Assembly: GCF_023702715.1 (NCBI RefSeq)
Contig: NZ_CP098480.1
Coordinates: 2,108,001 to 2,172,000, forward strand
Direction: 5' to 3'
Source: Acinetobacter sp. C32I
Lineage (GTDB): Bacteria; Pseudomonadota; Gammaproteobacteria; Pseudomonadales; Moraxellaceae
DNA length: 64,000 nucleotides
Under the pieces are notes generated by a model. The model searched no databases. It saw only the letters and a program-made list of their open reading frames with translations, and had not been told where the DNA came from. The stretch's first letter is position 1. Every line of letters starts with the position of its first letter. The translations under genes were made by a program, and so were the position numbers. This document shows positions 12,632 through 32,981 of the stretch, piece after piece.

Positions 12632-13660
12632 TTACATACCATTGACTCGGATTTTTAGGTCTGTCACGGAAGCATTGGTAAAACCAATATTCCCGATTGC
12701 GCTATTTTGTAAGCCATTAAATCGATATGCAGCATCCGTTGTCGCTGGAATAGTCGCGGTATTACCAAATTGAATATTATTCAATTTTAAATCGACATTA
12801 TCTGATTTTCCTTCATTTCCAAAAACCAGTGCCCCATCACCTTGCCCCGCAGCAGATTCCCCAATAACTCCAGCATAAAACTTATCTAAACTAAATCCAG
12901 TTGGATTTGATGCCTTGAGCTGAAAATTAAAGCTAGCCCCAATTGGATTATTACTTCCATCATAACCAGAAACAAGCATCATATTACAGCCTGAACCAGT
13001 ACCACAAATTGAGTCAATTGCACCACCAAAACGAACCATTTTACCTTGAGGCGCAGATCCTAATTGAATATTCATCTTTGGCTTATTGCTTGATAGGAAT
13101 TTAACATTCAAGCCATTTTGAAGTCTTAATATCTCTTTTACACCGCTTTTAAGTGTGCTTTGATTAGAGTCAAAAATAGAACCTCTGATATAATTTGATC
13201 CAACCAAACTAGATAAAACACCAGTGCTATCGCTTGCTGCATAAACTGATAATGGAGAAATTACAAATTCATCTACATTCCCAAATGTCAAAGCAATATT
13301 GGCAAATGGGCCACTTGCACCCACTCCCTTATCCGTATCGATAACGGCTTTTAGCCCCAAATCGCTTGCGACCCCACCTGCTTTGAAGGTGATGTTCGGA
13401 TTAGATACAACCGCATTTGGACTTTGTGCAAATACTAAACCTGCACGGCCACGATATTCACTAGCTGCTGCGTTTTTAGTATCCCAACCATCACTATCTA
13501 CCACAGAAATTTGTTTAAATTCGACTTTTGAAACATTTACACCAATATTCAAACCATCTTGCCCTGTTGTAGTCGATAAGCTTTGGTCATCAAGTGGCTG
13601 CATCGCCATAGCAAATGGAGTTAACAACAAAGACAAACATCCAATTATTTTATTCATCAT
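12632..13660 (-). CDS. Exported protein with N-terminal TGQ motif (DUF6160-like), 342 aa
   Basis: A cleavable signal peptide ends at FAMA (about residue 19-20). The mature protein starts MQPLDDQSLSTTTGQDGLNI, the motif shared by seven other exported proteins of this block. The rest is rich in Gly, Asn, Ser and beta-branched residues, as in beta-rich surface or outer-membrane-associated proteins, with one cysteine pair (SICGTGSGCNMM). The N-terminal motif resembles proteins grouped as DUF6160/FilA-like in Acinetobacter; I give that from memory and with reserve. It is the last gene of a tight operon, starting 8 bases after the previous stop with an AAGGAT ribosome binding site. Function unknown. 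Confidence 0.78.
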   Translation of the reverse strand: MMNKIIGCLSLLLTPFAMAMQPLDDQSLSTTTGQDGLNIGVNVSKVEFKQISVVDSDGWDTKNAAASEYRGRAGLVFAQSPNAVVSNPNITFKAGGVASDLGLKAVIDTDKGVGASGPFANIALTFGNVDEFVISPLSVYAASDSTGVLSSLVGSNYIRGSIFDSNQSTLKSGVKEILRLQNGLNVKFLSSNKPKMNIQLGSAPQGKMVRFGGAIDSICGTGSGCNMMLVSGYDGSNNPIGASFNFQLKASNPTGFSLDKFYAGVIGESAAGQGDGALVFGNEGKSDNVDLKLNNIQFGNTATIPATTDAAYRFNGLQNSAIGNIGFTNASVTDLKIRVNGM

Positions 13661-13668
13661 GCCTATCC

Positions 13669-16257
13669 TTAGTTTCGAGGAATAATTCCTAGTTGCCCTG
13701 TTATGCGTCCCCCTGTGAGAACAGCTTCACCTAAACGTTGTGGTGCACTTGTTGCTGATGGTGGATAGAAATTGATATCCCGAACACGTAATACACCATC
13801 AATTTTATCTTGGGCTGATCCCACTCCTGTGGTTCCAGCAGGGTTAAACGTTAAACCAGCTTTAAATGAAACCATTCCATCACAACCAGCAGTAGGACAT
13901 GTACCTCTTGTATCTGGTGCAATAATAATTGCATTGTTAAATGCAACTTTACCATCAATATTGTCAAAACCAACGGTTGAACCATCCAAAGGATCACTCA
14001 ATTGGATGGCACTTTTACCGCCATCTTTTACCGCTTTTAATTCTAGCTCACCGACAACACTTAAACGACTCCCATCTGTACTGGTATATTCACTATTAGG
14101 AATGAGAGACAGATCAATTTTTTTACCGTCTAAACGAAGTTTCGTTGAAAGGAGTACATCATTATTATTAGAAAAGTCAGCTGATGATGCTAATGCAGCT
14201 GTAGATGTTCCCGCATATCTTGCCCCTGGTAAATAACCACCCGCAATTTGTGCAGATAAGATAATTAATATATCTTTTAAGCTTGCATTAAAACTACCAT
14301 TTTCAAGTCCTAGCGTTCCTGTCCCTCTCAATAACATATCAATATTACGTAAACCCATATAACGAACTGAGTTTGTATCCGCATTATCCAATAATAAAAT
14401 TGACGTGGTTTTTTGCTTGGTTGGATCTGTACTACCATTCATACCTGTAGTACTCATCGCAAGAGAGAAACCTAAACGTTCAGATCCCGCAACAACAGTA
14501 TATCGTGTTCCATTCAGATCATAATAATAAGCATCTGTTGGAGCAGTTGTACCATACATAGCCAAATTAGCATTCAAATCATAGAATGGTAATGCCAAGC
14601 CCCATGTATTTCCCGCTGTATCATTAATTTTTGGAATGGTTGTTCCAACTGTTCTTGCACTGTTGGTAAACCGACCACTTCGTGAAAATGCCTGAAACTC
14701 CGCACCACGAATTGCAGCGAGTATTGCATATGGATTTTGGTTCGTTGTTCCATTGTGTATACTCTGAACATAATCAGCATCAGTCGTCAGTGTGGTGGAT
14801 GTAGAACCATTCCAATATCGACTGGTTTGTAATGCTTTATTCGCAGGTAACAAAACTGTTTTAGTATCGACTAAATTTAAATAAACATTACCTGTATCAA
14901 ATGAACCTCGGTTTTGCAGGTTTAAACCTGTCAATTCACCAAACTCAAAGCCATAAGTATTAAAGCCAGCTCCACCAATTTCTAAAGTCGTCGCCTTTGA
15001 ATTATCCCCTTCCAGCATCGGATCATTTTTCTTGGTAAAATCCGCTCTCATACGGAAAGCAATACCTGTATCCCCTATGATATTTTGAGTTCCGGCTGCA
15101 GTCACTGCATTATTGGCTTTTCCTAAAATATTAGTATTGTCAGGATTACCATATTGATTTGTTGCGGTATTATAGACAGGATCAGTTCGAGTAAATCCAT
15201 CCGAGCTATTGGTATTTGTACCTCTTACCTGAACTGAACCATTCACCATACGACCACTTGCGCCTAAACGAATTAGGCCTTTTGCAGTATCCGAAGCAAC
15301 TTGTCCATTTAGCGGCGTTTTTGTTGCATCGACTGAATAAGGAGTGTTGGCATTCACATTCTTATTGAGCATGAACTCAAGATTTAAGCCCGCATTACTT
15401 GCCGTAGCGGAGTAAGTATTTCCTGTAATCGTCCCAGGATTTGCAGGATCATTTACGCGAGTAAAATCAACATACCCATAAGTTGAATTCGGCTTGGTAC
15501 TCGTTGCTGTATTCACTGAACCATCAGCGTTATAGTTAATTACAGCATTAGTTGCATTAGCGGCATTGGTTCTTACAATAAAACCATCTGTACCATCAAT
15601 ATACATCACACCCTTGGCTGAAAAATTAAAGTTAAAATTCTTAAGAATCAGCTGATTAAGGATTTGACTTGTTGAAGGACCTGTTTTTTGTCCTAAATAA
15701 ATATTGGCATTTCGTGAACTGAAGATTAACTCACTCTGACCATCTTTACTAAAAAGACCATCTCTAGTTTTAAAACTAATACTGGTATCTGAGTTAGTTT
15801 GTACTGCAATATCGCCCACAGGACTACCGCATGCTGCCGTATCACAAACTTTAAACTTATTCATGCTAATCAATACAGGTGCAACTTTTAAATTAAAATC
15901 GAGACCTGATTTACCCGCTTGACTACCACTATTGAGTTGAATATCAACATTCGGATTTATTGCTGGTGTTGACGTATGCGACTGGATTTTAAAGTTTTCA
16001 CCTTCAGCACGTAAAGTTGTATCAGCGGCTTTGCCCGCACTTCCTCTTCCAGCATTATCTTGCCAGAAGAACGTCCCAACATTCACCTCTTTAAAATCTA
16101 AATTGACATGTAGACCATCTTGACCATTGACATTACTCAGGGATTTATCATCAAGTTCTTGCAGGGCGTAGACAGAATGGCTAATCAATAGCAGACTCGC
16201 TGCAAGTGCACTCAGTACAAAACATCCTGTTTTCAGCTTTTGATTATTTTTTTTCAT
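13669..16257 (-). CDS. Large exported protein with N-terminal TGQ-like motif (DUF6160-like), 862 aa
   Basis: The signal peptide is long, with a hydrophobic core and likely cleavage after HSVYA near residue 31. Mature LQELDDKSLSNVNGQDGLHV matches the block's common motif, with N for T before GQ. The body is Asn/Thr/Gly-rich and beta-rich. It has a cysteine-containing segment near residue 137 (VCDTAACG) and another near the C terminus (RGTCPTAGCDG). No repeat array or membrane segment was seen. It is the third gene of the operon, beginning 26 bases after the stop of the preceding gene with an AAAGGA ribosome binding site. It is most likely envelope- or surface-located; its molecular role is unknown. 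Confidence 0.78.
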   Translation of the reverse strand: MKKNNQKLKTGCFVLSALAASLLLISHSVYALQELDDKSLSNVNGQDGLHVNLDFKEVNVGTFFWQDNAGRGSAGKAADTTLRAEGENFKIQSHTSTPAINPNVDIQLNSGSQAGKSGLDFNLKVAPVLISMNKFKVCDTAACGSPVGDIAVQTNSDTSISFKTRDGLFSKDGQSELIFSSRNANIYLGQKTGPSTSQILNQLILKNFNFNFSAKGVMYIDGTDGFIVRTNAANATNAVINYNADGSVNTATSTKPNSTYGYVDFTRVNDPANPGTITGNTYSATASNAGLNLEFMLNKNVNANTPYSVDATKTPLNGQVASDTAKGLIRLGASGRMVNGSVQVRGTNTNSSDGFTRTDPVYNTATNQYGNPDNTNILGKANNAVTAAGTQNIIGDTGIAFRMRADFTKKNDPMLEGDNSKATTLEIGGAGFNTYGFEFGELTGLNLQNRGSFDTGNVYLNLVDTKTVLLPANKALQTSRYWNGSTSTTLTTDADYVQSIHNGTTNQNPYAILAAIRGAEFQAFSRSGRFTNSARTVGTTIPKINDTAGNTWGLALPFYDLNANLAMYGTTAPTDAYYYDLNGTRYTVVAGSERLGFSLAMSTTGMNGSTDPTKQKTTSILLLDNADTNSVRYMGLRNIDMLLRGTGTLGLENGSFNASLKDILIILSAQIAGGYLPGARYAGTSTAALASSADFSNNNDVLLSTKLRLDGKKIDLSLIPNSEYTSTDGSRLSVVGELELKAVKDGGKSAIQLSDPLDGSTVGFDNIDGKVAFNNAIIIAPDTRGTCPTAGCDGMVSFKAGLTFNPAGTTGVGSAQDKIDGVLRVRDINFYPPSATSAPQRLGEAVLTGGRITGQLGIIPRN

Positions 16258-16283
16258 TGCTCAATCCTTTGAAACCGATAAAC

Positions 16284-17060
16284 TTAACAACGCGCATGAT
16301 TACTACAAGCAAAAATCTGAACTTTACCTTCCATTGCAAGGTTGCCATTCATTTTCAATCCCATGAAACCTGTTTCTTTATTGGTATCATAATTATTTGC
16401 TGTGGTGCCTGTTGCACCAATACTTTGTGGGACTGCACTATAAGTTGCTGTTTTCAAGAATCCATAATCTTGTGGGTTGCTACTCGTTTCTTCAATCAGT
16501 TTTCCTGATGCATCAAAATAAGATAGAACTTTATCCTGTTCTATCGACAAAGCATTAAAACCAAAATCACGAATTTGAATCGGTTTAGTTGGATCAAATG
16601 AAAACTGCATTGCAGGTTTAATCATTGAACCTGAGGCAGCTCCATTCACGTATTTGGTATAATTTAAATCAATCCCCTCTAGACCAATTTTTTGGATATT
16701 CAAAGTGCCTTGCAAGCCTTTAAAAACCACCCACAATTTACGTGCTTTGTTTGCACTGGTTGGGTCACTTGCGGCCAAAGACCACACATCAGATGAATCA
16801 CCTGATTGGAATTGAACAAAGCGTTTATTTACAGAAACAGCTAAACGGCAATACTCCAAGTTTGTACAATTAAATGTCGGTACGGTACCTGCCAATAAAG
16901 CACTATCGGTTAGCACGTTTTGGTTCAAAGAGACTTTTAATGATAAATCTGCCCCACCTTGGCCTTGAATAGATTGAAGTGTTTCATTATCTAAAGCTTG
17001 TAACTCAGCATAAGATAGGCTTGAGGTTAAGGATAAGAGCAAAGCGAATATTTTTTTCAT
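16284..17060 (-). CDS. Exported protein with N-terminal motif (DUF6160-like), 258 aa
   Basis: The signal peptide (MKKIFALLLSLTSSLSYA) is followed by ELQALDNETLQSIQGQGGAD, a divergent version of the block's shared motif. The mature part is beta-rich, includes the cysteine-containing stretch FNCTNLEYC, and ends with FACSNHARC, so the last residue is a cysteine, as in the four larger paralogs at 21-28 kb. It is the second and smallest gene of the operon, 12 bases after the 724-residue gene, with an AGGAGAG ribosome binding site. It might be a minor subunit of a structure built by its neighbours; this is inference from operon structure only. Confidence 0.76.
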   Translation of the reverse strand: MKKIFALLLSLTSSLSYAELQALDNETLQSIQGQGGADLSLKVSLNQNVLTDSALLAGTVPTFNCTNLEYCRLAVSVNKRFVQFQSGDSSDVWSLAASDPTSANKARKLWVVFKGLQGTLNIQKIGLEGIDLNYTKYVNGAASGSMIKPAMQFSFDPTKPIQIRDFGFNALSIEQDKVLSYFDASGKLIEETSSNPQDYGFLKTATYSAVPQSIGATGTTANNYDTNKETGFMGLKMNGNLAMEGKVQIFACSNHARC

Positions 17061-17072
17061 GTGTATGCTCTC

Positions 17073-19247
17073 CTATAGTCCTGTGGTTGTAATTTTTAAA
17101 TGCTGAATAAGCAAACCATCAATCACAGCTGAACCAAAGTTGTTATTCGGTATCGTTGGAGTTGGAGCGGTATTGGTTGTTGGAATCACAGTACCCGTTG
17201 TTCCATTCGAGGATCCAATAAAGCTATCTAAAATTGGATTAGCCGTCGTACGCCATGCCGCACCATTTAAATTTGTATCCGACCATGTCCGGTTACCAAC
17301 AGTGGCATATTTAGGCGTTGAAGTATCAGAAGCATTATTATTACAACTTCCTGAAGTGCCACTACCAGTGCCACACAATGTCGCACTCGTTGGCGTGTTG
17401 GTCCAACCTGTTGCTGAATTTACTAAAGTCCCTGAACCATTATAATATTGCCACTGATACACAGAACCTGTGGTATTGCTCACAGCAGTACAATTCCCCC
17501 AAATACTACTACTTGTACATCGACTATTAGTAATCCAAGTAGAAGTATTCATTTCGCGTTGTGCATAGCGTACCTGTGTTGCGGTATTGGTTGTAACATT
17601 ACTTAAAATACCCGCTGGGTTTTGCATATTCCCAAAAGAAATACCCACTGCATCATCAACACCAGCGGTTCCTTTATAGGCTTGTAAGGTTTTACCACCA
17701 TCACTGCTATAAACAGAACCTAAGCTAATACTACTGTGTGTTGCTAGCTTCTTACCAGAAAGCGCCGCAGTCGAATAATCTGTTCGTGCTGAACCGCCCT
17801 GATAACCCGCGATATCTGAGGTACCACATTGATAGACATTACAGGTTGAACCTAAATAAGACGTATCCGCGCCTGTATAATCTGTATAGATCTTCTTATA
17901 AATTGCAGGATTATTTGGAATACGGGCAATTTCGAGACTAAAATTTCGACCATTCGAACCTAGAATAACAGGTTGATATAAGCCCCCTAATACAAGGTTG
18001 ATGTTCGGGTTATAAATAAATATCCCTTCATTGGCATCGAAACTTGGTGCTGTTGCACTACTCGACAACGCTGGTGTTTCCAAACATTTAGTAGGATTGG
18101 TCGCACAGTCATAAGCTGTCGTTTCCCGTGTACTTAGTCTTAAAACACTGTTGGTTGGCACATTCCATACACGCTTGATTTGCTGAGTATCTGTCCGAGT
18201 TTGCTTTTGAACAATAAACTTACATCCTGTAGATGTGTTGTCAAATGAACCTGTTCCCGCATTACCACAACTGCCAGTCGCAGCTGTTTTCGATGTTCCT
18301 AATGTTGCATCTTGACCATTATGAATGGTTGTCCATGCCGAGGCTGTCCCAACGCTTCCCAATTGGGTATCGGTATAAGTCGCTTTTAAATTCGCGCCAT
18401 CCCCACTATTGATGCGAATAACACCAGCTAGACCTAAAGTATTATTATAAAAAGAGCTCATACCGTTGGCATTACTTGAACCAGCTAGAGTCTGAAAAAC
18501 CTGCAAGCTACTACCATTTATACTAAAACCATTCATAATCGCCTGTAAGCGTAAACGGTTTGCACGATTGGCATCACTGGTACTAAACAATTCACCTAAA
18601 TTAAATTGATCAGCAGCACCATCCGCTTTACTTTGGTCACGAACAAAAGCATCAGCCCAGAAAGCAAGCTTTAAGTTATAAGCATCCACGCCAGTCTTCG
18701 CACCTGTTTCATATAATGGTGCTTCTAAATTCAGGTAGGTTACAGATCCATCTACACCAGCAAAGTTTGGAACATTTGCTGCTGTTTTTGCTTTTAATAC
18801 CCATGGATTCTCAGCTGTTCCCCAACTCGCAATCTGTGGTGAAACTGAATCAAAACGGCTATTTGTGTCATTATTATTATTTTTAGATAAGGCAAGGCCA
18901 TATAAATAAATATCGGCCTTACCCACTGAATGGTCAGATGAGTTTACAACACCGTCTTTATTGGTATCTTGTGCGAGTGAGGTTAGACCACCAACAGGGA
19001 GGTAATGAATATAACCTGTATCTTTACTACGGTCATTCAATATAGCAGAGGTCGTCTCATTCCCTGTATTTGCACCACGAAAAACAAAATCAAAATTGGT
19101 TGGTAGAATCGCAATCCCTTCACCTGTCGTCTGACTTAAGGCCTCATCCGAAATTTCCTGCAATGCAAAAGCATATCGGCTTAAGCACAAGCCAATCAAT
19201 GTTGCTAAAACAGTTCGTTTAAATGATACCGTATGAAATGTCGTCAT
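17073..19247 (-). CDS. Large exported protein with N-terminal TGE/TGQ motif (DUF6160-like), 724 aa
   Basis: The first gene of the four-gene operon. The signal peptide ends near SRYAFA (about residue 28). Mature LQEISDEALSQTTGEGIAIL carries the shared motif with E replacing Q. The body is rich in Asn, Thr, Ser and Gly. It has clusters of cysteines in short loops, such as CGNAGTGSF, YDCATNPTKC and CNVYQCG, suggesting disulfide-pinned loops in an extracytoplasmic protein. A GGAAGG ribosome binding site precedes ATG 19247. The 255-base gap to the halogenase-like gene is the only place for a dedicated promoter, but none stands out. Function unknown. Confidence 0.77.
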   Translation of the reverse strand: MTTFHTVSFKRTVLATLIGLCLSRYAFALQEISDEALSQTTGEGIAILPTNFDFVFRGANTGNETTSAILNDRSKDTGYIHYLPVGGLTSLAQDTNKDGVVNSSDHSVGKADIYLYGLALSKNNNNDTNSRFDSVSPQIASWGTAENPWVLKAKTAANVPNFAGVDGSVTYLNLEAPLYETGAKTGVDAYNLKLAFWADAFVRDQSKADGAADQFNLGELFSTSDANRANRLRLQAIMNGFSINGSSLQVFQTLAGSSNANGMSSFYNNTLGLAGVIRINSGDGANLKATYTDTQLGSVGTASAWTTIHNGQDATLGTSKTAATGSCGNAGTGSFDNTSTGCKFIVQKQTRTDTQQIKRVWNVPTNSVLRLSTRETTAYDCATNPTKCLETPALSSSATAPSFDANEGIFIYNPNINLVLGGLYQPVILGSNGRNFSLEIARIPNNPAIYKKIYTDYTGADTSYLGSTCNVYQCGTSDIAGYQGGSARTDYSTAALSGKKLATHSSISLGSVYSSDGGKTLQAYKGTAGVDDAVGISFGNMQNPAGILSNVTTNTATQVRYAQREMNTSTWITNSRCTSSSIWGNCTAVSNTTGSVYQWQYYNGSGTLVNSATGWTNTPTSATLCGTGSGTSGSCNNNASDTSTPKYATVGNRTWSDTNLNGAAWRTTANPILDSFIGSSNGTTGTVIPTTNTAPTPTIPNNNFGSAVIDGLLIQHLKITTTGL

Positions 19248-19502
19248 CTTGACCTTCCTGTTACACGATGCTCCGCACCAGTATTATTTTTCTAAATCTT
19301 GCTGAGTGACTTCCTACTACACAAACTCGCAGTTTAAGGATATGCTTCCAAGCATCACTCGAAACTTAGGCAGAATTTACCTACTCAATCTCAGTTTTTA
19401 TTATGCCTACTATTTACGCAAATGCAAAAAAAACCAGTTAAAAGTTACATTTTTCCGATGTATGAAAATAAACATAACGTTCTACTGGCTTCATTCAATA
19501 AC

Positions 19503-20990
19503 TTACAAAGATAAATGATGTTTTATCTCCTGCAAATATTTCGCTAATTTTTGCTTTTTTTCTGATGATAGTGCGTAAAGTTCCGCTGAAGTTGCTTCTG
19601 GCTTAATGACCCCAACCCCAGCCCCTACAGCAAACCAGTTGGCAGTACTAAACATCGACATCCCACCCATATTATATTCTACAAAATCAATATCTCGCGG
19701 TGTTCGGTACGCCCAACATTTTTTCAACTCCTGGTAACTTTTAGACTGTGGAACGGTCAGCATATATTGCCAAAATGGGGTGTCTGAACGCCCAGTATCA
19801 TAATGCATACGAATAAAATCACATATACCTTGCCAATATTGAGCATTTTGCTGGTTATAAAAATCTATATTTTGTTGCGAAATGACACCATGATTTTCTT
19901 GTATAAAAGAGATCAACAGTTGTAACTGACTCAGCATCTGTCCAATTGATGTTGCCTCCAATGGCTCAATAAACCCTGATGCCAAACCAATACCCACTAC
20001 ATTTTTAATCCAAACTTGCTGAAAATAACCTGCCTCAAATGCAATCGGTTTAACTGGATGAATTGGATGCCCTAACCATTGTTCAACCTCTTGTTGCGCT
20101 TGCTGATCACTAATAAACTGATCATGGTAGACATAACCTGCCCCTATCCGCTCTTGTAATGGAATTTGCCAGACCCAACCAGAGCTCATAGCCGTTGCCC
20201 GTGTTACCAATTCAATTTTATTTGTATGGGGAAGATGAAAAGGTAAAGCTTTATTCATCGGTAAAGTATCGGCAAAAGAACACCAGTGGCTTTGATATTT
20301 TTTCCCAATCAAGAGTTTTGAAAACCCAGAAGCATCTATCACAAAGTCACAACTTAGCTTTTCATCTACACATTGTATAGCTGAAACATAGCCTGTTATC
20401 GGGTTCAGCTCAAAATCCTCTATTTTCTTTTCAACATGAATAATTCCCCTAGATAAAGCGATTTTCTTTAGATATTGACCGACCCGAAAAGTATCAAAAT
20501 GTAACGAAGCTCCGAAATTATTTTTACCTTCTAATAAAATCTGTAAAACCTCTTGAAACGGTTTTCGGTCTTCACTGAATTGATAAGAGGCCATATAGCG
20601 GCTAATATCAATGCCATGATTGAATAGTCCTGATAAATAAGGATTAAACCCAAATTCATTCCATGCAAAATCTGGTGTTGGCAATGAGAAAAGATGATAA
20701 TAATAATCGTCTGCTTTGCCAGTTCTCCAACGTTCATAGCGAAACCCCAATTTAAGTGTTGATCCTGTTTTATCTATAAAATCTTTTAGATCAACATTTA
20801 AATTATGTAATACAGTGAGCAAGTTGAGTACCCCACCCTCGCCAACGCCAACAATTGGAATCTCTGGTGCAGAAACAACCACGACCTCAACAGATGAGCT
20901 AAACACTTGTCTCAGTTGCAATGCAGCAAACCAACCTGCTGTCCCCCCCCCCACTACCACAATTCGATTTAATCCCCTCAAATTTAGCAT
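19503..20990 (-). CDS. Flavin-dependent tryptophan-halogenase-like enzyme
   Basis: The 495-residue protein belongs to the FAD-dependent tryptophan halogenase family, whose members use FADH2, oxygen and halide to make a lysine-bound halogenating species. The FAD motif GGGTAGW is at residues 14-20. The active-site lysine of the family matches K80 in STLKLGFRYERW. WxWxIP, which separates halogenases from monooxygenases, is present as WVWQIP at 272-277. The glutamate of the EPLEST motif is E345 in EPLEATS, where S is replaced by A. There is no signal peptide, so it is cytoplasmic. No flavin reductase is adjacent. I place the start at 20990 (GAAGGG ribosome binding site) rather than at an in-frame upstream ATG at 21038. 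Substrate unknown. Confidence 0.88.
   Translation of the reverse strand: MLNLRGLNRIVVVGGGTAGWFAALQLRQVFSSSVEVVVVSAPEIPIVGVGEGGVLNLLTVLHNLNVDLKDFIDKTGSTLKLGFRYERWRTGKADDYYYHLFSLPTPDFAWNEFGFNPYLSGLFNHGIDISRYMASYQFSEDRKPFQEVLQILLEGKNNFGASLHFDTFRVGQYLKKIALSRGIIHVEKKIEDFELNPITGYVSAIQCVDEKLSCDFVIDASGFSKLLIGKKYQSHWCSFADTLPMNKALPFHLPHTNKIELVTRATAMSSGWVWQIPLQERIGAGYVYHDQFISDQQAQQEVEQWLGHPIHPVKPIAFEAGYFQQVWIKNVVGIGLASGFIEPLEATSIGQMLSQLQLLISFIQENHGVISQQNIDFYNQQNAQYWQGICDFIRMHYDTGRSDTPFWQYMLTVPQSKSYQELKKCWAYRTPRDIDFVEYNMGGMSMFSTANWFAVGAGVGVIKPEATSAELYALSSEKKQKLAKYLQEIKHHLSL
20943..20952 (-). repeat. Homopolymer of ten G (coding strand) inside the halogenase-like gene
   Basis: Ten consecutive C on the plus strand read as ten G in the coding strand and span codons 13-16 (the end of Val and three Gly of the FAD-binding motif). 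A change of one or two bases would shift the frame at the very start of the protein, so this is a candidate contingency tract. Confidence 0.9.
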
Positions 20991-21010
20991 CAGATTTCCC
21001 TTCAATATAA

Positions 21011-21038
21011 ATAAAAAGTGGAAGCCTGAAACTCCCAC
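21011..21038 (-). terminator. Terminator or attenuator ahead of the halogenase-like gene
   Basis: GTGGGAG and CTTCCAC pair (one G-T wobble) around a seven-base loop and are followed by TTTTTATTT in the minus direction. The T run ends only about 20 bases before the halogenase start, so there is no room for a promoter between them. Its expression must read through this site, or start upstream of it. Confidence 0.66.
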
Positions 21039-21075
21039 TTAAATTAGATTAAAAACAATTCAATTTTAGATAAAC

Positions 21076-24319: not shown

Positions 24320-24430
24320 TATAAAAAATCCTTTTTTCGGGTTTAAAGATTTAAACAACCATCCTTATCAAATTCGCTTACAGGCATGAAATTATCAAAC
24401 GAACGATTTTCATATTATGTATTACATACA

Positions 24431-24588: not shown

Positions 24589-26088
24589 TTAGCAAAAACT
24601 TAAACTGCCATAGCAATTTGTTGGAATTTTTTGATTTTTTAATTGCTGGTTTTCTAAAACCAAGCTTGCTCGATTCGAACTTACAGGAATTGTTAATGTT
24701 TTAACAATAGGTTGATTAACTGCCGCCCCCAATGCATCTATGAGATTAACATTAATAGGATCACTAGCATATAATTGCTGTGTCACAAAAGTTGCGACTT
24801 GTGGGAGTACGTTACTGATATCAACTTGCTGAGAAGCTTTCAAATACCCTAATTGCACAGGTTCAGCGAAAGACATCCACCAACCCGATTGTGCAATATC
24901 ATCCGTATTTGCACCCGGCCACTGTAATGCTTGTTTCTGCAAAGATAGATATCCACCCGTCCCTTTCAAGGGTATATTATGAATCATACTCAATGACTGT
25001 TTAAAAGTAATATCAATATTTAAATCAGTAAGCTTCGATCCAGCCCCCATTTTGAACTTAGCAGTGCAAATCCAGAGAACACAGTCTTCATTAGATAAAT
25101 TACTTGCATTACGTAAACTAACCATGAGCTGATCATTTCGATAAAGGTCATTACATGCTGCACTTTCACTACAGCCATTAGCTCTTGCAATTGCAATTTC
25201 AGGAATCTTTGCCGTTACATTTGGGGCAATTGCTTGAGTTTGACGCTTACCATTTACTGTAAATGGATTTAAAGTAAAACCTACATTCATACTTGGAATA
25301 CTGATTCCGGATGTACCACTATCAGCAGGTAAACTTGCAAAATCTTTTCGGCCAAATAATGCGACATCCAATTTACCAGCAATTGATTGACATGCAGTAG
25401 GTCCACTCATCTGTGGCATACAGTTAGAGCCACTTTTACCAAATGTTGCTGCCTGAGTCCAAACATCCCCTGTTGTTCCTGCAATTTGCATATAACCACT
25501 TAGACTTTGAATACCATCTGTTGTGGATGGTGTTGCTCCATTTGCAATACCTGCTGTTAATAATGCATTAATTTTTTCGGCACTTAGTCTTAAGCCCAAA
25601 AACTCTCGAGTTGAAGCACTGTTTGGATTTTTAATGGCAAACTCAATAAATGGATTGGTAATTTCAGCACTGGTTGATGCGCGACCATTATTAAAAGTCG
25701 GGCTACCTTCATTCGGATTTGTAGAACCACTCTCTACTCCATCATTTAAACCGCTCAGTGATAAGTTTTTAATATCAATATCACAACCACCAACACCATT
25801 TGAACCACCACATCCAAGTTGTAGATTTCGAATATTGGCATTTAATTCTAGTTTTGCCTCTAGCCCTAATTTATAGAATCCTACACTTTGTTCGCCACCA
25901 GCACGTTGCCTTTCTAAATTGGCTGTATCATTAGGTGCTATATAAGATAAACTCATTAGCGCCTGACCTGTAGTCGCTGACATTTCACTATCAGACATAG
26001 ATTGTAGAGTCGTAGAATTGGCATATACAGAGTTCGTATAAAAACCAATTGCTCCTAAAAACACCATTGATAAATATGTATTTTTCAT
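24589..26088 (-). CDS. Tandem exported paralog, subtype I (copy C), 499 aa
   Basis: The signal peptide ends near NSVYA (residue 23), followed by NSTTLQSMSDSEMSATTGQA. The protein is very similar to copy A over its first 200 residues (LGCGGSNGVGGCDIDIKNLS; NPFIEFAIKNPNSASTREFLG; DGIQSLSGYMQIA) and again near the C terminus (MIHNIPLKGTGGYLSLQKQA; GWWMSFAEPVQLGYL). The middle is variable. It ends NCYGSLSFC. The leader AAAGGATTTTTATA before ATG 26088 matches copy A almost exactly. A terminator follows at 24546-24573, so it may be its own transcription unit. Function unknown. Confidence 0.8.
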   Translation of the reverse strand: MKNTYLSMVFLGAIGFYTNSVYANSTTLQSMSDSEMSATTGQALMSLSYIAPNDTANLERQRAGGEQSVGFYKLGLEAKLELNANIRNLQLGCGGSNGVGGCDIDIKNLSLSGLNDGVESGSTNPNEGSPTFNNGRASTSAEITNPFIEFAIKNPNSASTREFLGLRLSAEKINALLTAGIANGATPSTTDGIQSLSGYMQIAGTTGDVWTQAATFGKSGSNCMPQMSGPTACQSIAGKLDVALFGRKDFASLPADSGTSGISIPSMNVGFTLNPFTVNGKRQTQAIAPNVTAKIPEIAIARANGCSESAACNDLYRNDQLMVSLRNASNLSNEDCVLWICTAKFKMGAGSKLTDLNIDITFKQSLSMIHNIPLKGTGGYLSLQKQALQWPGANTDDIAQSGWWMSFAEPVQLGYLKASQQVDISNVLPQVATFVTQQLYASDPINVNLIDALGAAVNQPIVKTLTIPVSSNRASLVLENQQLKNQKIPTNCYGSLSFC

Positions 26089-26250: not shown

Positions 26251-26310
26251 CGATAAATAAATCGATTTCTAAAGAGAACTTATTTTTTCTTTATATAAAG
26301 CCCAATATAA

Positions 26311-26340
26311 TAAAAAAGACAGCTTATGCTGTCTTTTTTA
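26311..26340 (-). terminator. Intrinsic terminator of paralog D
   Basis: Perfect twelve-base arms (AAAAAAGACAGC and GCTGTCTTTTTT) around a four-base loop, ten bases after the stop codon. Confidence 0.88.
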
Positions 26341-26349
26341 TTAAAAAAA

Positions 26350-27813
26350 CTAGCAGAAACTTAAACTCCCATAACAATTTGGCGCAAAATTTTGCCCATT
26401 GAGCTGCAAATTAGATAAATTCATCTGTAAGGCAGCAACATTAGACAAGTCTACATTTCCTATTTCTGCATCTATACCATTTCCAAGCATGACTCCGAGA
26501 AGATCATTTGTTCTGGCAGGATTCTGTTTTAAATAATCCCCAGCTTTTGTTGCAAATTGCCCCAACAATGGCTCAATACTCAATCTTTGCGTTGGTTCTA
26601 CACGTCCAATACTCACAGGATCTTGTAATGCCAGCCACCAGCCTGATTGGGCAATATTTGCAGTATCCGAATCAGGCCATAAAATATTTTGACTTTGTAA
26701 ACTTAAAGATGCTGCCGAATTTATTTCTAAACGGTGAATAAACCCAAGTGCTTCTTGGAAATTTACCGTCGCCTTTGCTCCACTAACTGAACCACTCATT
26801 TTAATATTGCTAAACTGACGACCTTCCCATGCAACCAAGCATGTAGGAGCCAGAGTTAAATTTCTACAACCTGTAACCACAGCATCAACAGGATTCCCCG
26901 CCGTATAGACTGCTGTTGTTGTTCCATTAGCATCTGAGGTAGTTCGACCAGATGCTGGATAATCATTACCCGTGCCTAAATAAATTGTTGGGATATTGAT
27001 GGTTGCATTTAAACCGATTGAGGTATTTCTTTTACCATTGACTACAATTTGTGGGGTTTCAATTGGTAGATTATTCATTTCTGGAATACTAAAGCCACCG
27101 CCATTGGTTCTAAAATCTGCATCAGCTAAATCAACCAGTACATTTGCAATTAAACGCCCTTCAATCGGATAGGTTGCTAAACTCATATATTGCGCTGCTG
27201 TATTGGCAGAAACCTTAATTTTGCTTCTTTCTAATTCCGTATCCCCAATCCCAGATTGTACCTTCATATAACCAGAGAGACTATTTATCCCATTAGCAGT
27301 AGAGGAGTTCTCAGTACCCAATGTCAATAACCCGAGAACTTTTTCAGCACTTAACCTCAACCCGACAACATTTCGAGTGGAAGCCTGATTAGGATTTTTA
27401 ATCGCAAATTCAATAAAAGGGTTGGTTAATTTTGCACTTGAACCTGCTCGCCCTTCACGCGTATCTGAAATTCCACTTAGGCTTAAATGATCAATATCAA
27501 TATCACATCCACCCGCTCCATTCCTACCACCGCAGCCTAACTGCAATTTTTTTATATTGGCATTTAACTCCAATTCAGCTTCCATTCCTAAACGATAAAA
27601 ACCTAGATTTGGATCTCCATCCGAACGCTGATTTTCTAAATTTCTAGCATCTGTAGGTGCAATATAAGACATACTCAACAATGCCTGCCCTGTTGTCGCG
27701 GACATTTCAGAATCAGATAAGCGATGTAAGGTTGTAGAAGTTGCATAAGCAGAATTTAAGCAGAGACTACCTAAAGTCAACATTGCGTAATGAAGAGACT
27801 TGAAGTATCGCAT
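26350..27813 (-). CDS. Tandem exported paralog, subtype II (copy D), 487 aa
   Basis: The first of the four tandem paralogs in transcription order. The signal peptide ends near NSAYA (residue 24) and differs from those of the other three, which share a YLSMxFLG start. The mature start is TSTTLHRLSDSEMSATTGQA. LGCGGRNGAGGCDIDI, NPFIEFAIKNPNQASTRNVVG, GGGFSIPEMNNLP and DYPASGRTTSDANG place it with copy B. The tail is NCYGSLSFC, as in copies A and C. A strong GGAGGT ribosome binding site precedes ATG 27813. The upstream region lacks the element found before A, B and C, so its control may differ. Function unknown. Confidence 0.8.
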   Translation of the reverse strand: MRYFKSLHYAMLTLGSLCLNSAYATSTTLHRLSDSEMSATTGQALLSMSYIAPTDARNLENQRSDGDPNLGFYRLGMEAELELNANIKKLQLGCGGRNGAGGCDIDIDHLSLSGISDTREGRAGSSAKLTNPFIEFAIKNPNQASTRNVVGLRLSAEKVLGLLTLGTENSSTANGINSLSGYMKVQSGIGDTELERSKIKVSANTAAQYMSLATYPIEGRLIANVLVDLADADFRTNGGGFSIPEMNNLPIETPQIVVNGKRNTSIGLNATINIPTIYLGTGNDYPASGRTTSDANGTTTAVYTAGNPVDAVVTGCRNLTLAPTCLVAWEGRQFSNIKMSGSVSGAKATVNFQEALGFIHRLEINSAASLSLQSQNILWPDSDTANIAQSGWWLALQDPVSIGRVEPTQRLSIEPLLGQFATKAGDYLKQNPARTNDLLGVMLGNGIDAEIGNVDLSNVAALQMNLSNLQLNGQNFAPNCYGSLSFC

Positions 27814-28233
27814 TATTGACCTCCGTGTTTAACACATCCATATTTGTTTATTTTTATAGTGTTCCTATATCAATCACCGACGATTTTCTAATCTATAAAT
27901 CTTCTGTGATGTGTATAAAAACAAATCATTTAAAAAATTATATGTTAATTATTTTTAAATACTAGTTTTATTTTTCTAAACAATTAAGGCCAAAAAATTA
28001 AAAACCTTTTATTTATGTCACAAAAAAAGCTCACCATATTTTTTATATGCTGAGCTGTACTATATTTTTATTTAAAAATTAAACAACTGATATTTATTAG
28101 AAAAATAAATATATCTATTTTTTCTATAAAAATAATCCCACAACGATATTACTCTTCATGCAAAAGAATAACCCTATTCTAAAAACACAGAAAATTAATA
28201 ATATTTACAAATAAATATATTCATTGATTTAAA
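27814..28233. other. 420-base gene-free region between the TPS pair and the paralog array
   Basis: Very A+T-rich. It holds the terminator of the TPS operon (28022-28056). The roughly 200 bases nearest paralog D should contain its promoter and end in its GGAGGT site. No open frame or repeat of note. Confidence 0.6.
28022..28056 (-). terminator. Terminator of the tpsA-tpsB unit
   Basis: AGCTCAGCATAT and ATATGGTGAGCT pair with a single mismatch around AAAAA and are followed by eight T in the minus direction. It lies about 180 bases beyond the tpsB stop. Confidence 0.7.
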
Positions 28234-29937
28234 TTAAAATCTCCATCCAATACCAAACTGCAAGCGTGGTTGCTGATCCTTGTCGCTTTTCGCTGCTGAA
28301 GTATTTCGCCATGCAAGTGTCGCATTATAGTCAAAGTCTTGATAGCCACCGCCAAAACCAATCCCTGTACTTGCCAAAGCGCGGGTATTTTTATCACTAA
28401 GATATGGATTTTTATTTTGCTGTATTCGTCCAACATCTTGGAATAAATAAGTATTTAGCCATGGTGTTAGTTGATAATAAAAATTAATTGATGCCCCCCA
28501 ACCTTGATCTCCAAGTCCTTCTGCTACTGGATAAGCACGCATTTGGTTCAAGGAAAATTTCTCGGCGGAATCAAGATTCTTAGATGCAAGTTGTCCATAT
28601 AACTCACTGGTCAACCATGAAGATGCTGTTAATCTTTGCTGTCTGGAAAGCTTAAGTTCATATTTATTGAAACTGCCTTGGGTCTTTGCAGATAAACGAT
28701 CGATATTCAAAGCCGATGGGCTTTGTATGTTCAGATTGCCAATCGTCGTGATCAACTCAAATTGATTAATACCACCTTTGGCATCTCCAATTCCCCAATC
28801 ATCCATTCGACTAAAACTGAGTGAGATACGACTCGCCTCTATCTGTTTGGTTGTCTCTGTATTCGTCGCCGCGATTTCATCAAATAATTTTCTTTTTTCA
28901 GCCAAAAGCTTCAAATTCAGATTGGTTTTCGGACTTCGGATCAATGGATAAATGAGGTTTATATTATAGTTTTCAGAGGTCCCTGTAGCATCCAATTGCT
29001 TAAACTGTTCACCCAGTTCATATTCAGTTCTACTATAACCACCGCCCAGCCATAGACCCGTTCCTGTTATAGGTAATCGGGCATTTAGACTTCCTGAAAC
29101 CAAATCTTGATTACTTCCGAGTAATTGAGCAGATAGCTTCTCTCCATATCCCAACAAACTATTACTTTCGAGATAGCCTGAAAGTCGATATTTTCCTGTA
29201 TAGCTACTTCCAGCGTTATCAATACCAATTCGTCCGAGCCAAGTTGGCTGTCCCAGAATGTCCAGAACAAGGTCGGTTTGCCCAATCTGTTCGCCAGCCT
29301 GTAGGTTTGCCTGAATTTGCCCCACACCTGCTAGGTCTGAAATAAGGAGCAAAGTCTGATTACTTTGCTGTCGTTGTAACGCCTGATGATGAGGAATTTG
29401 ATCGGTAAAGCGCTGAATGGTTGTATCTTTAATTCTAGACTGGTTATTTAAAATAACTTGCCCCAGTTGTCCTTCTAAAATTCGGATCACCAATATTCCA
29501 TTTTCTAATTTTTGTTTGGGTAGATAAGCTTTCGCTAGAAAGTAACCCTGTTTTTTATAGTATTGGGTGATTCGTTCTGCACTAAGCTGTAAATCAGCCA
29601 GTACCTTATTTTTATTTTCCAGTGATTTGACTAAATCATGTAAAACTGCTGTAGCAATTTGTCGATTCCCTTCTATCTGGACTTTTGTGACCCAAATAGG
29701 GGTTTGATCCTGACTATAATTTTGCTGCGATGAATCAGCGCCAAAGTACTGTTGGTCTGTTTTTGGTGTCTCTTTGAATTGTTCAGGACTTAATTGCTTC
29801 GTAATAATGCCACTATCAGGAATCATAACATCTGCACGGACAATAGATGAACCAGCAACCAAAATGCTAATCCCTCCCATTACTTGAAGGAGTGTTCTAT
29901 TGCGCATCCCTGCTTGTTTATATAAATAAAATTTCAT
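28234..29937 (-). CDS. Two-partner secretion transporter, TpsB/FhaC/ShlB type
   Basis: An outer-membrane beta-barrel of the Omp85-related TpsB family that exports its TpsA partner from periplasm to surface. With the start at ATG 29937 (AGAGAAATA upstream; a TTG seven codons earlier is less likely) it has 567 residues. The signal region is near residues 15-37. A POTRA-type domain begins about residue 80 (WVTKVQIEGNRQIATAVL; YYKKQGYFLAKAYLP). The C-terminal barrel ends in FGIGWRF, with the terminal phenylalanine recognised by the BAM complex. MRAYPVAEGLGDQGW matches the conserved L6-loop motif (VRGYP in many members) with Gly replaced by Ala. It lies just downstream of its TpsA gene. Confidence 0.93.
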   Translation of the reverse strand: MKFYLYKQAGMRNRTLLQVMGGISILVAGSSIVRADVMIPDSGIITKQLSPEQFKETPKTDQQYFGADSSQQNYSQDQTPIWVTKVQIEGNRQIATAVLHDLVKSLENKNKVLADLQLSAERITQYYKKQGYFLAKAYLPKQKLENGILVIRILEGQLGQVILNNQSRIKDTTIQRFTDQIPHHQALQRQQSNQTLLLISDLAGVGQIQANLQAGEQIGQTDLVLDILGQPTWLGRIGIDNAGSSYTGKYRLSGYLESNSLLGYGEKLSAQLLGSNQDLVSGSLNARLPITGTGLWLGGGYSRTEYELGEQFKQLDATGTSENYNINLIYPLIRSPKTNLNLKLLAEKRKLFDEIAATNTETTKQIEASRISLSFSRMDDWGIGDAKGGINQFELITTIGNLNIQSPSALNIDRLSAKTQGSFNKYELKLSRQQRLTASSWLTSELYGQLASKNLDSAEKFSLNQMRAYPVAEGLGDQGWGASINFYYQLTPWLNTYLFQDVGRIQQNKNPYLSDKNTRALASTGIGFGGGYQDFDYNATLAWRNTSAAKSDKDQQPRLQFGIGWRF

Positions 29938-29973
29938 TATTTCTCTAAATTTAATCAATATCTTATTATTTAG

Positions 29974-29997
29974 GACCAGAGGCTTAAGCCTCTGGTC
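29974..29997. other. Perfect hairpin between tpsA and tpsB
   Basis: Ten-base arms (GACCAGAGGC and GCCTCTGGTC) around TTAA, with the TTAA itself symmetric. There is no T run on either side, so it is not a standard terminator. Its position between the two cistrons suits an mRNA-stabilising or processing element. Confidence 0.6.
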
Positions 29998-30023
29998 TTA
30001 TATCTTAATAATCTCTTTTAATC

Positions 30024-32981
30024 TTAATGATTATAGCGAAGCCATGGGGTTGTATTATCTTCATCAATCACCCATGTCGAGCTTGAGTTTGGATCCGAAG
30101 CATCGGCAATATCCCAACCTGAAAAAATCAGAATTTTTTGCAGTTCTGCTGTGGTTTTTCCAGTGCCGCCTGCACTACTAGATTGACCAGAAGTTTCGAT
30201 ATTCCAGTAACTATTAATGACTATACCATTAGCATAAGGGTCATCTCCAATGAGCCCCCCGACATGATTTACCCCAGTTACAGCTCCATTTGAATAACTA
30301 TTTTCAACCGTTCCAATATTATATCCAATGAGCCCTCCAACTGAAGTTGCACCTTCAGTTATACTTGTTGAATATGAATTTGTAACAATACCATCATTTC
30401 GACCAACAAGCCCACCAACCGAAGATTCTCCTTTTACCTTTCCTCCAGACAAACTTTGTTGAATTATACTATTAGGTGTATTGTAACCAACTAGTCCTCC
30501 AACATATTGACTTTGGACAGCACTATTCCCAATCACATCACCAGTAGCATAACTATTATTAACATACAAACGCGATGTTTCAGAATTAGCTACAATCTGG
30601 CCCACTAAACCTCCCAACGCAGTTAGGCCACTTACATTTCCAGTTGCATAACTATGATCTATATAATAATTTTCATTTTGTCCTGGAGAATAAGCGAGCA
30701 CTCCAGCTAAACCACCAGCACCAGCAAAAGCAAACTCTGGATGCCAGTTTCCATTGATATATGCCCCTGATAAAATATCGCCTGTCGCATAGCTATTATA
30801 AATTCCGACTGACTGACCAGCTAAGCCTCCCGCATATAAGCCAAATGTTACTCCAGTATTATCTTTGTCCCATTGTTCTGCTAATCGCGATAAATCAGAG
30901 AAAGTAATATCCCCAGTAGCATAACTGTCGTAAATTGGTAGAAGGCTCATTCCTACTAAACCTCCAACCCCCACAAAGCCTTTTACTTGCGCAGTTGAAT
31001 AGCTTTGACTAATTTTACCTTGATTAACTTCAAAATACGGGACACCTGCTTGGCCAATCAAACCACCAGTCAATAACAGTCCATCCACACGACCTGTACT
31101 ATAAGCATTTTTAATATCTCCCCCTAGATATAGTCCAGTTAAAGCACCAACATAAGCGAATCCATCCAAAGATATGTTAGTCAAACCTACATCTCTGAGC
31201 TCACTCTTATAGGTCACTCCAAATAAACCTTGTGGAATAGCTCCTAATTGATCAACACCTTCAGGTTTATGAATCGTTAAACCTTCTATCTGATGACCTA
31301 AACCATGAAAACCACCTTGAAAAGCGGGTACAGCTGAAGAGATTCCTTCACCTTGTAAATATTGGTAGACATCACTGACTTTCAGCTGCCCAATTGCCTC
31401 AAAGCCTTTACCATTATTCCAATTCACCGTATCAGACGCATCAATATTGCTACCTAAAGCATAGTTACCAGTCAGGTTATTTTGCATGCCCTGTAAGGTA
31501 TTGCTACTTGTATCCCCCTCGACACCCAGGTCATTAATTACAATATATGATTTATCATTAATCACTAAATCAGGTGATGAACCGCTGATATTAATCTTGG
31601 CACCATTATTTAAGTTGTAATCCGAACCAGCTCCATAGTTCATGGCAAGCTTGGCTTTATCTCCACTTAAGTCCAAATCGCTATTAAAATTAATATCTTT
31701 AGTTGCGGTTAGTGTTAGTGCGGTATTGGCGTTCCAACTGCTTGCATCATTGAGATTAATATTGCCTTGGCCTTCTGCCGTACCAATCGCATTCAAGCTG
31801 ACGTTACCTTTGTTTAAAGCATCACCCAAAGTGGTACTACTGACACTGCCACCAAAGAAATCGACATCAACATTTTTGGCTTTCAACTCCCAGCCACTGG
31901 TGGTCGGCGGTAAGCTGCTCGTACTATTTCGCTGTGTCGTGATATTGGTTCCTGAATTGATGTTTACCTCTGCCGCAGAGGTTTTAATCTGCCCACCATT
32001 ACCACCGTTCGGGGCGGATGCATCGAGGGTACCGCTAACATTTACCTTACCGCTGCTTAAATCACTGCCGAGCTCAATCACACCGCGAACATTATTCACC
32101 GTTTGTGCTTGGATCACGCCAACACTATTCACCACCGCATTACTTAATTCATCAATGCCTTTTGCAGTAAGGATCACTTTACCGCCATCGGCTTGAATCA
32201 TACCACCTGAGTTAATCAAGGCCTGTGCTTTACCTTGATTAATGGTGTAACCCAATAGGCTGCCATTATTTAGACTCAGGGTAATATCACCACCTGCTGC
32301 CAATAATACATTGCCCTGCGGTGCTTTGATCGTACCAGTCTGTTTTACTGTTGGGGCAATCAATGCCACTGTACCGCCTGTAGGTACCGTGATTTTGCCG
32401 CGGTTCTCAATGGTTTTGTTATTGCTAGTATTATTAAAATTAAAGAGATTATTATTAAAATCAGCATTACTCAGGTTTAAAGTCGATGCCACCAAACCCG
32501 CGGTATTCACCTGTGAGGTACTGCCAAATAGCACCCCATTCGGGTTAATAATAAACACTTGTCCATTGGCATTTAACTGACCATTTAAGTTGGATGCACT
32601 TGTACCTGTGACGCGGTTTAAGGTAATCGAGCTGCTATTCGGTTGCACGAAATTCACAATTTCATTGCTATTGGTGGAAAAGCTGCTCCAGTCAATTGCA
32701 GCTTTTGCGGTGGACTGGTTAATCGTGGTGGTGGTACCTGCGGTTGAAATGCTCGCTGTTCCAGAACTCACCACCCCACCTGTTGGTCCTGCAAATACAA
32801 TACTTGCACTCAATACATTCACCGCAAACAACGCTGCTAGTTTTACTGTATGGGCAACTGAGCTTTTAGATTTGATTTTTGTTGTTGATTGCGTTGCAAC
32901 AATGCCTCCTTTGGCCTTCTCACTCACGGCTTGCCAGCAAAGATGTGTTGCATTCCATACTACTTGATAGATTTTATTCAC
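30024..32981 (-). CDS. Two-partner secretion exoprotein (TpsA, haemagglutinin-like adhesin)
   Basis: The 985-residue protein begins with an extended signal peptide region (MNKIYQVVWNATHLCWQAVS, residues 1-20). This is followed by a basic stretch and a classic signal peptide cleaved after VFA (residue 64). The TPS domain follows, with the hallmark NPNG at 146-149 (VFIINPNGVLFG) and parallel beta-helix style repeats. The C-terminal third is a series of about nine GLUG-type repeats (VGGLVGxN; NSYATGDV). Such proteins are secreted adhesins of the HMW1/FHA kind. Translation starts at GTG 32981 with an AGGTGGG site. It is smaller than many TpsA proteins and lacks an obvious toxin domain. Confidence 0.93.
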   Translation of the reverse strand: MNKIYQVVWNATHLCWQAVSEKAKGGIVATQSTTKIKSKSSVAHTVKLAALFAVNVLSASIVFAGPTGGVVSSGTASISTAGTTTTINQSTAKAAIDWSSFSTNSNEIVNFVQPNSSSITLNRVTGTSASNLNGQLNANGQVFIINPNGVLFGSTSQVNTAGLVASTLNLSNADFNNNLFNFNNTSNNKTIENRGKITVPTGGTVALIAPTVKQTGTIKAPQGNVLLAAGGDITLSLNNGSLLGYTINQGKAQALINSGGMIQADGGKVILTAKGIDELSNAVVNSVGVIQAQTVNNVRGVIELGSDLSSGKVNVSGTLDASAPNGGNGGQIKTSAAEVNINSGTNITTQRNSTSSLPPTTSGWELKAKNVDVDFFGGSVSSTTLGDALNKGNVSLNAIGTAEGQGNINLNDASSWNANTALTLTATKDINFNSDLDLSGDKAKLAMNYGAGSDYNLNNGAKINISGSSPDLVINDKSYIVINDLGVEGDTSSNTLQGMQNNLTGNYALGSNIDASDTVNWNNGKGFEAIGQLKVSDVYQYLQGEGISSAVPAFQGGFHGLGHQIEGLTIHKPEGVDQLGAIPQGLFGVTYKSELRDVGLTNISLDGFAYVGALTGLYLGGDIKNAYSTGRVDGLLLTGGLIGQAGVPYFEVNQGKISQSYSTAQVKGFVGVGGLVGMSLLPIYDSYATGDITFSDLSRLAEQWDKDNTGVTFGLYAGGLAGQSVGIYNSYATGDILSGAYINGNWHPEFAFAGAGGLAGVLAYSPGQNENYYIDHSYATGNVSGLTALGGLVGQIVANSETSRLYVNNSYATGDVIGNSAVQSQYVGGLVGYNTPNSIIQQSLSGGKVKGESSVGGLVGRNDGIVTNSYSTSITEGATSVGGLIGYNIGTVENSYSNGAVTGVNHVGGLIGDDPYANGIVINSYWNIETSGQSSSAGGTGKTTAELQKILIFSGWDIADASDPNSSSTWVIDEDNTTPWLRYNH

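Follow-up and report, generated by a model that had tools for sequence, protein, structure and literature searches.

In Acinetobacter sp. C32I, a stretch of 64,000 nucleotides (contig NZ_CP098480.1, positions 2,108,001 to 2,172,000, here called the window) contains a block of 11 genes, all on the minus strand. Eight of them encode exported proteins that bear the same 15-residue tag directly behind a Sec-type signal peptide, and the other three encode a homologue of flavin-dependent halogenases and a pair resembling the TpsA and TpsB proteins of two-partner secretion (TPS). Starting from the TpsA end, the order is TpsA, TpsB, four P proteins, HAL (the halogenase homologue), F724, F258, F862 and FA342, where P, HAL, F724, F258, F862 and FA342 are names coined in the present analysis. 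We read the block as the local strain variant of a conserved, fast-evolving exported cassette, whose tagged products would share a common step after Sec export and to which a tailoring halogenase is optionally added; this interpretation stands at about an even chance.

A tag common to eight exported proteins

The tag reads LxxLxDxxLSxxxGQ (or GE), and its regular expression, run over the six frames of the window, gave 8 matches, which are exactly the eight genes. The initial annotation, which had described eight genes on one strand for proteins of 258-862 amino acids (aa) with a motif after the signal peptide, was therefore accurate on this point. The signal peptides of the tagged proteins were assigned by visual inspection. 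For the four P proteins, the distance from A-x-A to the start of the tag is about 4-5 residues. Seven of the eight tags end in GQ and one in GE. The genes and their tags are the following:

12632..13660, minus strand: FA342, FilA-like and DUF6160 tagged exported protein, 342 aa; DUF6160 35.3 bits (cut-off 27), FilA 96.7 bits (cut-off 220); tag MQPLDDQSLSTTTGQ at 13559-13603
13669..16257, minus strand: F862, DUF6160 tagged exported protein, 862 aa; DUF6160 45.9 bits; tag LQELDDKSLSNVNGQ at 16120-16164
16284..17060, minus strand: F258, DUF6160 tagged exported protein, 258 aa, C-terminus CSNHARC; DUF6160 29.3 bits; tag LQALDNETLQSIQGQ at 16959-17003
17073..19247, minus strand: F724, tagged exported protein, 724 aa, C-terminus LLIQHLKITTTGL; no Pfam family found; tag LQEISDEALSQTTGE at 19119-19163
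21076..22617, minus strand: P513, P-family tagged protein, 513 aa, C-terminus NCYGSLSFC; tag LQSMSDSELSATTGQ at 22492-22536
22865..24319, minus strand: P497, P-family tagged protein, 497 aa; tag at 24194-24238; the start is probably the GTG at 24319, which fits the paralogues, while the listed open reading frame (ORF) reaches a TTG at 24358
24589..26088, minus strand: P499, P-family tagged protein, 499 aa; tag at 25963-26007; modelled with a predicted local distance difference test score (pLDDT) of 85.9
26350..27813, minus strand: P487, P-family tagged protein, 487 aa; tag LHRLSDSEMSATTGQ at 27685-27729

A first profile of the tag (25 columns, 56 rows, including the window's own tags and the FilA of the same genome) was compared with the six frames of the whole genome and returned nine matches with E values from 1.0e-12 to 1.1e-8, namely the eight genes and FilA, which lies about 116 kb away from the block; the match ranked after those nine had an E value of 1.16, that is, noise. 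Because members match their own profile, a second one took 55 tags from other genera, contributed by up to 19 loci after removal of one labelled as the same genus, and it recovered the eight window genes at E values of 1.1e-8 to 1.5e-5, the next match being at 2.1. The gap in E values with the first profile and the recovery by the second therefore establish that the tag is real and specific. No further copy beyond the eight genes and FilA was found in the genome by the six-frame profile search, so that it gave no sign of the tag in unrelated cytoplasmic proteins, where its presence had been named as a finding that would undo the idea of one system.

The last residue varies more widely outside the genus, with Q in 36, A in 9, E in 6 and R in 4 of the 55 tags at position 19. 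When matches below 120 bits were excluded, the strict pattern fitted 72 of 75 P proteins, 43 of 44 F724, 39 of 40 FA342, 32 of 44 F862 and 32 of 44 F258 proteins, and at least some of the misses in the last two families are close variants that fall outside the strict pattern.

Beyond the tag, the relatedness of the eight proteins differs from case to case. P513, P497, P499 and P487 are paralogues with 40-76% identity over their full length. Profile-profile comparison of the five families showed that similarity ends within the first 34-56 residues, i.e., the signal peptide and the tag, in nine of the ten pairs; in the exception, F862-FA342, it extends to about residue 110-126, so that about 110 residues are common. 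The earlier statement that the rest of the proteins is unrelated is consequently true of the families, and not of all eight proteins. Similarly, the suggested likeness to DUF6160 (PF19657) applies to FA342, F862 and F258, which exceed its cut-off; F724 has no match and the P proteins reach 13.3-17.1 bits. This family spans the signal peptide, the tag and the stretch that follows, and F724 and P differ from it in falling below its cut-off despite the tag; in the literature, its name was found only as an entry in a domain list. The structure model of F862 has a pLDDT of 81.8.

Two of the families also have conserved C-termini. Those of P follow N-C-x-G-x4-C (e.g., window positions 21079-21105), with N491, C492, G494 and C499 invariant in 60 aligned sequences, and that of F258 follows C-x5 or 6-C in eight of eight. 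Judged from these residues, a terminal disulphide loop is possible in both.

A cassette at one chromosomal site

P and F862 each occur in 110 of the 129 genomes sampled from the genus, and the same 19 genomes are without both. A FilA match is likewise present in 110 of the 129 (106 over the cut-off) and missing in those same 19. Forty cassettes were then fetched, all by way of an F862 match. F258 and F862 are adjacent in all 40, and F724, F258 and F862 are contiguous in 37; in the three exceptions (L135-L137) a P gene lies between F724 and F258. P is within the stretch in 38 and FA342 in 36, the number of P copies per cassette ranging from none to four, and the cassette is usually flanked by dcd and dusC, one at either end. 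The cassette core, then, is P, F724, F258, F862 and usually FA342, and within Acinetobacter it occupies one chromosomal site. Scatter of the genes in other genomes, the second finding named as refuting the idea of one system, was not seen in the fetched cassettes, and this conserved linkage, together with the genome-wide specificity of the tag, bears out the view of the initial annotation that a tag common to unlike exported proteins denotes one system.

The TPS pair and HAL are not supported as parts of the core and are optional. TpsB was present in three of the 40 fetched cassettes, and HAL was intact in five and broken in one; these frequencies come from an unfair sample, because the first six cassettes were picked for having HAL or its remains. 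Across the genus, HAL was found in 11 of 129 genomes, against 110 for P. The combination with a halogenase-like enzyme is thus real, and HAL does lie in the cassette here, but only as an option. The remaining parts of the block are as follows:

28234..29958, minus strand: TpsB-like outer-membrane transporter, an optional neighbour outside the core; ShlB 58.2 bits, POTRA_2 56.2 bits
30024..32981, minus strand: TpsA-like protein with a filamentous haemagglutinin domain, an untagged optional neighbour; TIGR01901 79.8 bits (cut-off 29.1); position 32981 is the 5' end of the gene
12564..12583, minus strand: terminator-like hairpin past FA342, at the block end; pattern match only

The cassette diverges far more than its surroundings. 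Compared with Acinetobacter sp. Ac_5812, the flanking genes ccsA, dusC and dcd have 99.3-100% protein identity, with nonsynonymous divergence (dN) of 0.002-0.006 and synonymous divergence (dS) of 0.35-0.62, while FA342, F862, F258, F724, HAL and two P proteins have 43-87% identity, with dN of 0.08-0.61 and dS of 0.95-2.4; TpsB and TpsA are 93% and 78% identical, respectively. This pattern fits an exchange of divergent alleles combined with rapid change of the proteins. Exposed proteins usually behave in this way, but the pattern is not proof of exposure. The listed names of the cassette proteins are mostly 'hypothetical' or DUF6160, some sources labelling F862 homologues 'heme utilization protein' or DUF6160, and no account of a tagged exported-protein system was found in the literature searches made.

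Counterparts exist beyond the genus. DUF6160 was detected in 45 of 341 genomes of the order, representing 23 of 131 genera, and in 11 of 339 genomes of a phylum sample, 10 of these 11 belonging to the same order or nearer. Twenty order-level loci were chosen from the DUF6160 matches, most with a protein of about 800 aa and one of them (L201) labelled as the same genus. Fourteen have four neighbouring slots whose sizes resemble those of P, F724, F258 and F862, with a tag or a family-profile match in nearly all of the slots; another four loci have three slots, and two (L204 and L205) do not fit. Because some of the family matches are weak (12-30 bits), the slot assignment draws on gene order, size and tag as well. 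When the ORFs of the 20 loci were clustered, the only families to emerge besides the slots were present in eight loci or fewer, including one with a leuA-like and one with a rimI-like start (by eye).

The halogenase and the proposed scheme

HAL and the sites associated with it are located as follows:

19503..20990, minus strand: HAL, flavin-dependent (tryptophan) halogenase homologue, 495 aa; PF04820 356.8 bits (cut-off 21)
20943..20952: G10 tract in HAL (C10 on the plus strand), in the codons of the flavin adenine dinucleotide (FAD) motif GGGTAGW
21016..21040, minus strand: terminator-like hairpin between P513 and HAL, 11 pairs followed by a T-rich stretch; pattern match only

The start of HAL is most likely the ATG at 20990, which gives 495 aa, rather than the GTG at 21038 of the listed ORF; the 495-aa form is present in the database. 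HAL has no tag and, as judged by eye, no signal peptide. A GxGxxG FAD motif, WxWxIP and a catalytic Lys and Glu are marks of flavin-dependent halogenases, and HAL has all of these as GGGTAGW, GWVWQIP, K96 and E361. They are invariant or nearly so in an alignment of 15 rows, with K96, E361, G287, W290 and P293 invariant in 15 of 15. Among its matches is structure 5uao, which we take to be MibH, a peptide-modifying halogenase. Weak matches (18-33 bits, against cut-offs of 240-400) to QhpG, LodB and GoxB, which act on peptides or proteins, are suggestive only.

The 11 genus genomes with HAL comprise eight with intact cassettes, one with the gene elsewhere (G019), one with a weak match (G091) and one with a broken gene (G101). 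With strain 15BJ, from a scan of named genomes, there are nine HAL cassettes in all. A. venetianus RAG-1 (locus L028) is among the strains that have both the cassette and HAL. On a tree of F862 (44 rows), HAL requires at least five changes and is clustered, only one of 500 shuffles being as low.

On this basis the following scheme can be proposed. Each tagged protein would leave the cytoplasm by Sec, the only part of the mechanism that follows from the sequence. Signal peptidase would cut before or close to the tag, which, exposed at or near the new N terminus, would serve as one common recognition element, and a shared later step would read it and bring the proteins to the outer membrane or the surface, or assemble them there. 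HAL would be an optional enzyme taken up into the cassette that most likely modifies a cassette product before export, with P as the first candidate. What the sequences show is the tag with its specificity, the conserved linkage, the optional status of HAL and the TPS pair, and the catalytic signatures of HAL; we infer the common sorting step, the surface location, the route, and the substrate and activity of HAL. As for the route, a plausible candidate is the type II secretion system (T2SS), for two reasons. The lipoprotein FilF, from the separate fil operon, needs it, in that gspD or gspN mutants did not release FilF (PMC12802150), and a GspD match with an E value of 1.0e-157 or better is present in each of the 18 genomes that have three or four slots; for the tagged proteins this argument is weak.

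Found at the mature N terminus of several dissimilar exported proteins from a single operon, such a tag would constitute a sorting signal outside the known ones. P and F862 are widespread in a genus with clinically important species and change rapidly while their flanks stay conserved. With the tag, the question of sorting can be put to a direct test, and the optional HAL offers a clean test of surface-protein halogenation. To our knowledge, the lipobox, LPXTG, PEP-CTERM, the tail of the type IX secretion system and the TPS domain do not cover such a tag.

Several observations weigh against this scheme. Most cassettes are without HAL, and the cassette is present in all 11 HAL genomes, but its overall frequency is already 110 of 129. 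Between P513 and HAL there is a terminator-like hairpin, and HAL distances correlate less with those of the neighbouring P than with those of other cassette proteins. Of the Trp residues conserved throughout the HAL-bearing cassettes, none is peculiar to them; the nearest case, Trp583 of F724, lies in a region consisting mostly of gaps and occurs in six of nine cassettes with HAL against one of 34 that lack it. The Trp content of F724 does not differ between the two groups (p 0.75). The only conserved residues special to HAL-bearing cassettes are one Phe and one Cys, of doubtful meaning. Seven of the 14 non-cassette HAL loci with flanks show no adhesin, although two of these seven end near HAL, and the Sinorhizobium relatives lie beside nif and nodD2/LysR in a stretch without an adhesin. 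Outside the genus, the slot assignments are partly weak. GspD is over its cut-off in 265 of 341 genomes anyway, so that 18 of 18 is mildly above the base rate; the genomes in this count are not independent, and four of the 45 DUF6160 genomes (G052, G222, G250 and G298) have only weak GspD matches.

Somewhat less probable than the proposed scheme, and still a serious competitor, is the explanation that the substrate of HAL is a small molecule, for example free tryptophan or indole, and that HAL stands in the cassette as an insertion which the recombining locus tolerates, with no connection to the tagged proteins. The solved structures closest to HAL are mostly tryptophan halogenases and their kin, the best aligned being enzymes of the tryptophan-halogenase type (LooH, 202 bits), and relatives of HAL lie beside LysR and nif/nod genes in Sinorhizobium, LysR in Reyranella and LysE in Diaphorobacter. 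The patchy presence of HAL and the absence of a shared special Trp would also agree with it. On the other hand, the eight cassette HALs included in the tree, of nine in all, form one exclusive clade (support 100/99), seven of the nine lie directly after P and two after FA342, and chance insertions would hardly be kept in a cassette over a divergence that leaves the cassette HALs 49-94% identical. Moreover, HAL genes that adjoin giant adhesin-like genes are found in two other places of the tree, one with A. populi, an avian Acinetobacter metagenome-assembled genome (MAG) and Stenoxybacter, and the other with Bartonella.

Such a giant adhesin-like gene is next door in seven of the 14 non-cassette HAL loci with a flank (a 15th, L031, is too short). 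The adjoining frames have about 900-3300 aa and terminate in LLANHQIIIG or a sequence close to it; Ig-like domains are present in the single frame that was scanned, and one Bartonella locus continues with a gene of the TolC type. These neighbours are possible substrates of HAL. A similar neighbourhood has been described for an ant Bartonella and B. tamiae, where a Trp-halogenase gene stands beside a giant protein of the type I secretion system with Ig-like repeats, and its authors noted it and suggested products such as antibiotics (PMC5156944). The likeness lies in a Trp-halogenase gene directly adjoining a giant exported protein, and the difference in that the protein there is one of type I secretion.

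Some further features of these loci may be recorded. The giant adhesin-like proteins (L034, 75-5666; L035, L036, L041 and L043-L045) have a common C-terminus resembling ELLANHQIIIG, close to which Trp positions are conserved as judged by eye. In Sinorhizobium plasmids (L221-L223), the HAL relative, about 40% identical to the A. populi enzyme, is located between nif genes and nodD2 or other LysR genes. In a Moraxellaceae MAG (L032, 4843-6287), a HAL relative is split into two overlapping frames, i.e., broken or affected by a sequence error.

A second alternative concerns the tag, which might have no role in sorting and be an inherited, conserved piece of the N terminus, made up of signal peptide and helix, that serves folding or stability alone. 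The P model has a short helix at residues 33-38, in the tag and just before the first strand, with low to moderate confidence, and the similarity among the families takes in the signal peptide, both of which are consistent with this idea. We nevertheless consider it rather unlikely, as the tag heads families without further similarity in nine of ten pairs and is kept across genera.

Known systems and G/C runs

The tag has a counterpart of sorts in the double-glycine leaders of bacteriocins and other ribosomally synthesized and post-translationally modified peptides (RiPPs), whose consensus is L-S-x-x-E-L-x-x-[IV]-x-G and whose spacing matches that of the tag. The tag differs in ending with GQ, GE, GA or GR, not GG, the GG cleavage motif being absent from the ends of all eight window tags, and in sitting behind a Sec signal peptide on large proteins. 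Sub-threshold matches were found to Mersacidin, ComC and bacteriocin_sig (1-3 of 56 tags per family), and the unrelated families PTS, RskA_N and ChW gave similarly weak ones. The likeness suggests that the tag may act as a helix for recognition, and a second cleavage might follow GQ.

Flavin-dependent halogenases, in turn, share with HAL the FAD motif, WxWxIP and the catalytic Lys and Glu and include peptide-acting members; HAL differs from them in forming a clade of its own inside an exported-protein cassette. A leader-guided RiPP brominase has been reported (PMC10858898). A bolder version of the proposed scheme, which we regard as improbable, would have the tag be a leader-like post-Sec element read by one extracytoplasmic machine, which would assemble the otherwise dissimilar proteins at the surface, the precursors in some species being first halogenated intracellularly by HAL. 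If true, surface adhesins of ordinary bacteria would carry halogenated aromatic residues, amounting to protein-scale halogenation outside peptide natural products.

Export of the tagged proteins by the neighbouring TPS pair, which is adjacent and on the same strand in the window, is very improbable, since TpsB accompanies so few of the fetched cassettes and none of the eight tagged proteins matched a TPS or haemagglutinin domain in scans of domain libraries.

The identity of the locus with the fil operon, which consists of six genes, FilA-FilF, for a putative pilus system (PMC4751259), can be practically dismissed: FA342 matches the FilA model of NCBIfam (NF050077) over its length and yet stays well below the cut-off, and a separate fil locus lies elsewhere in the same genome, with a FilA at 325 bits followed by five genes that fit FilB-FilF by order. 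This FilA bears the same tag and is related to FA342; the five genes after it are without the tag and without a match to the P, F724, F258 or F862 profiles. No FilB-FilF genes were found beside FA342, the neighbours of which are the cassette and dusC. What is left of the FilA-like label of the initial annotation is a distant kinship of FA342. In the fil locus (L174, 7647-9314), the gene that is FilD by order reads, by eye, as a FadL-type outer-membrane protein. The 'pilus' label of the fil operon looks doubtful.

Finally, runs of G or C deserve mention. Nowhere else in the window does a G/C run reach 8 bases, and the G10 tract, which lies within the first 50 bases of HAL, could make the gene phase-variable. 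In 16 other HAL sequences (one genome counted twice) the longest such run is 4-7 at most, and in shuffles of the synonymous codons of HAL a run of 10 was reached in 42 of 5000. Among 239 cassette genes (L124-L163 plus the window), 19 runs of 7 or more were observed against a shuffle mean of 9.5, with two of 300 shuffles as high, and 356 flanking ORFs had one against a mean of 3.9, that is, fewer. Of the runs of this length found across the 40 loci, 17 fall inside the cassette families and 2 elsewhere.

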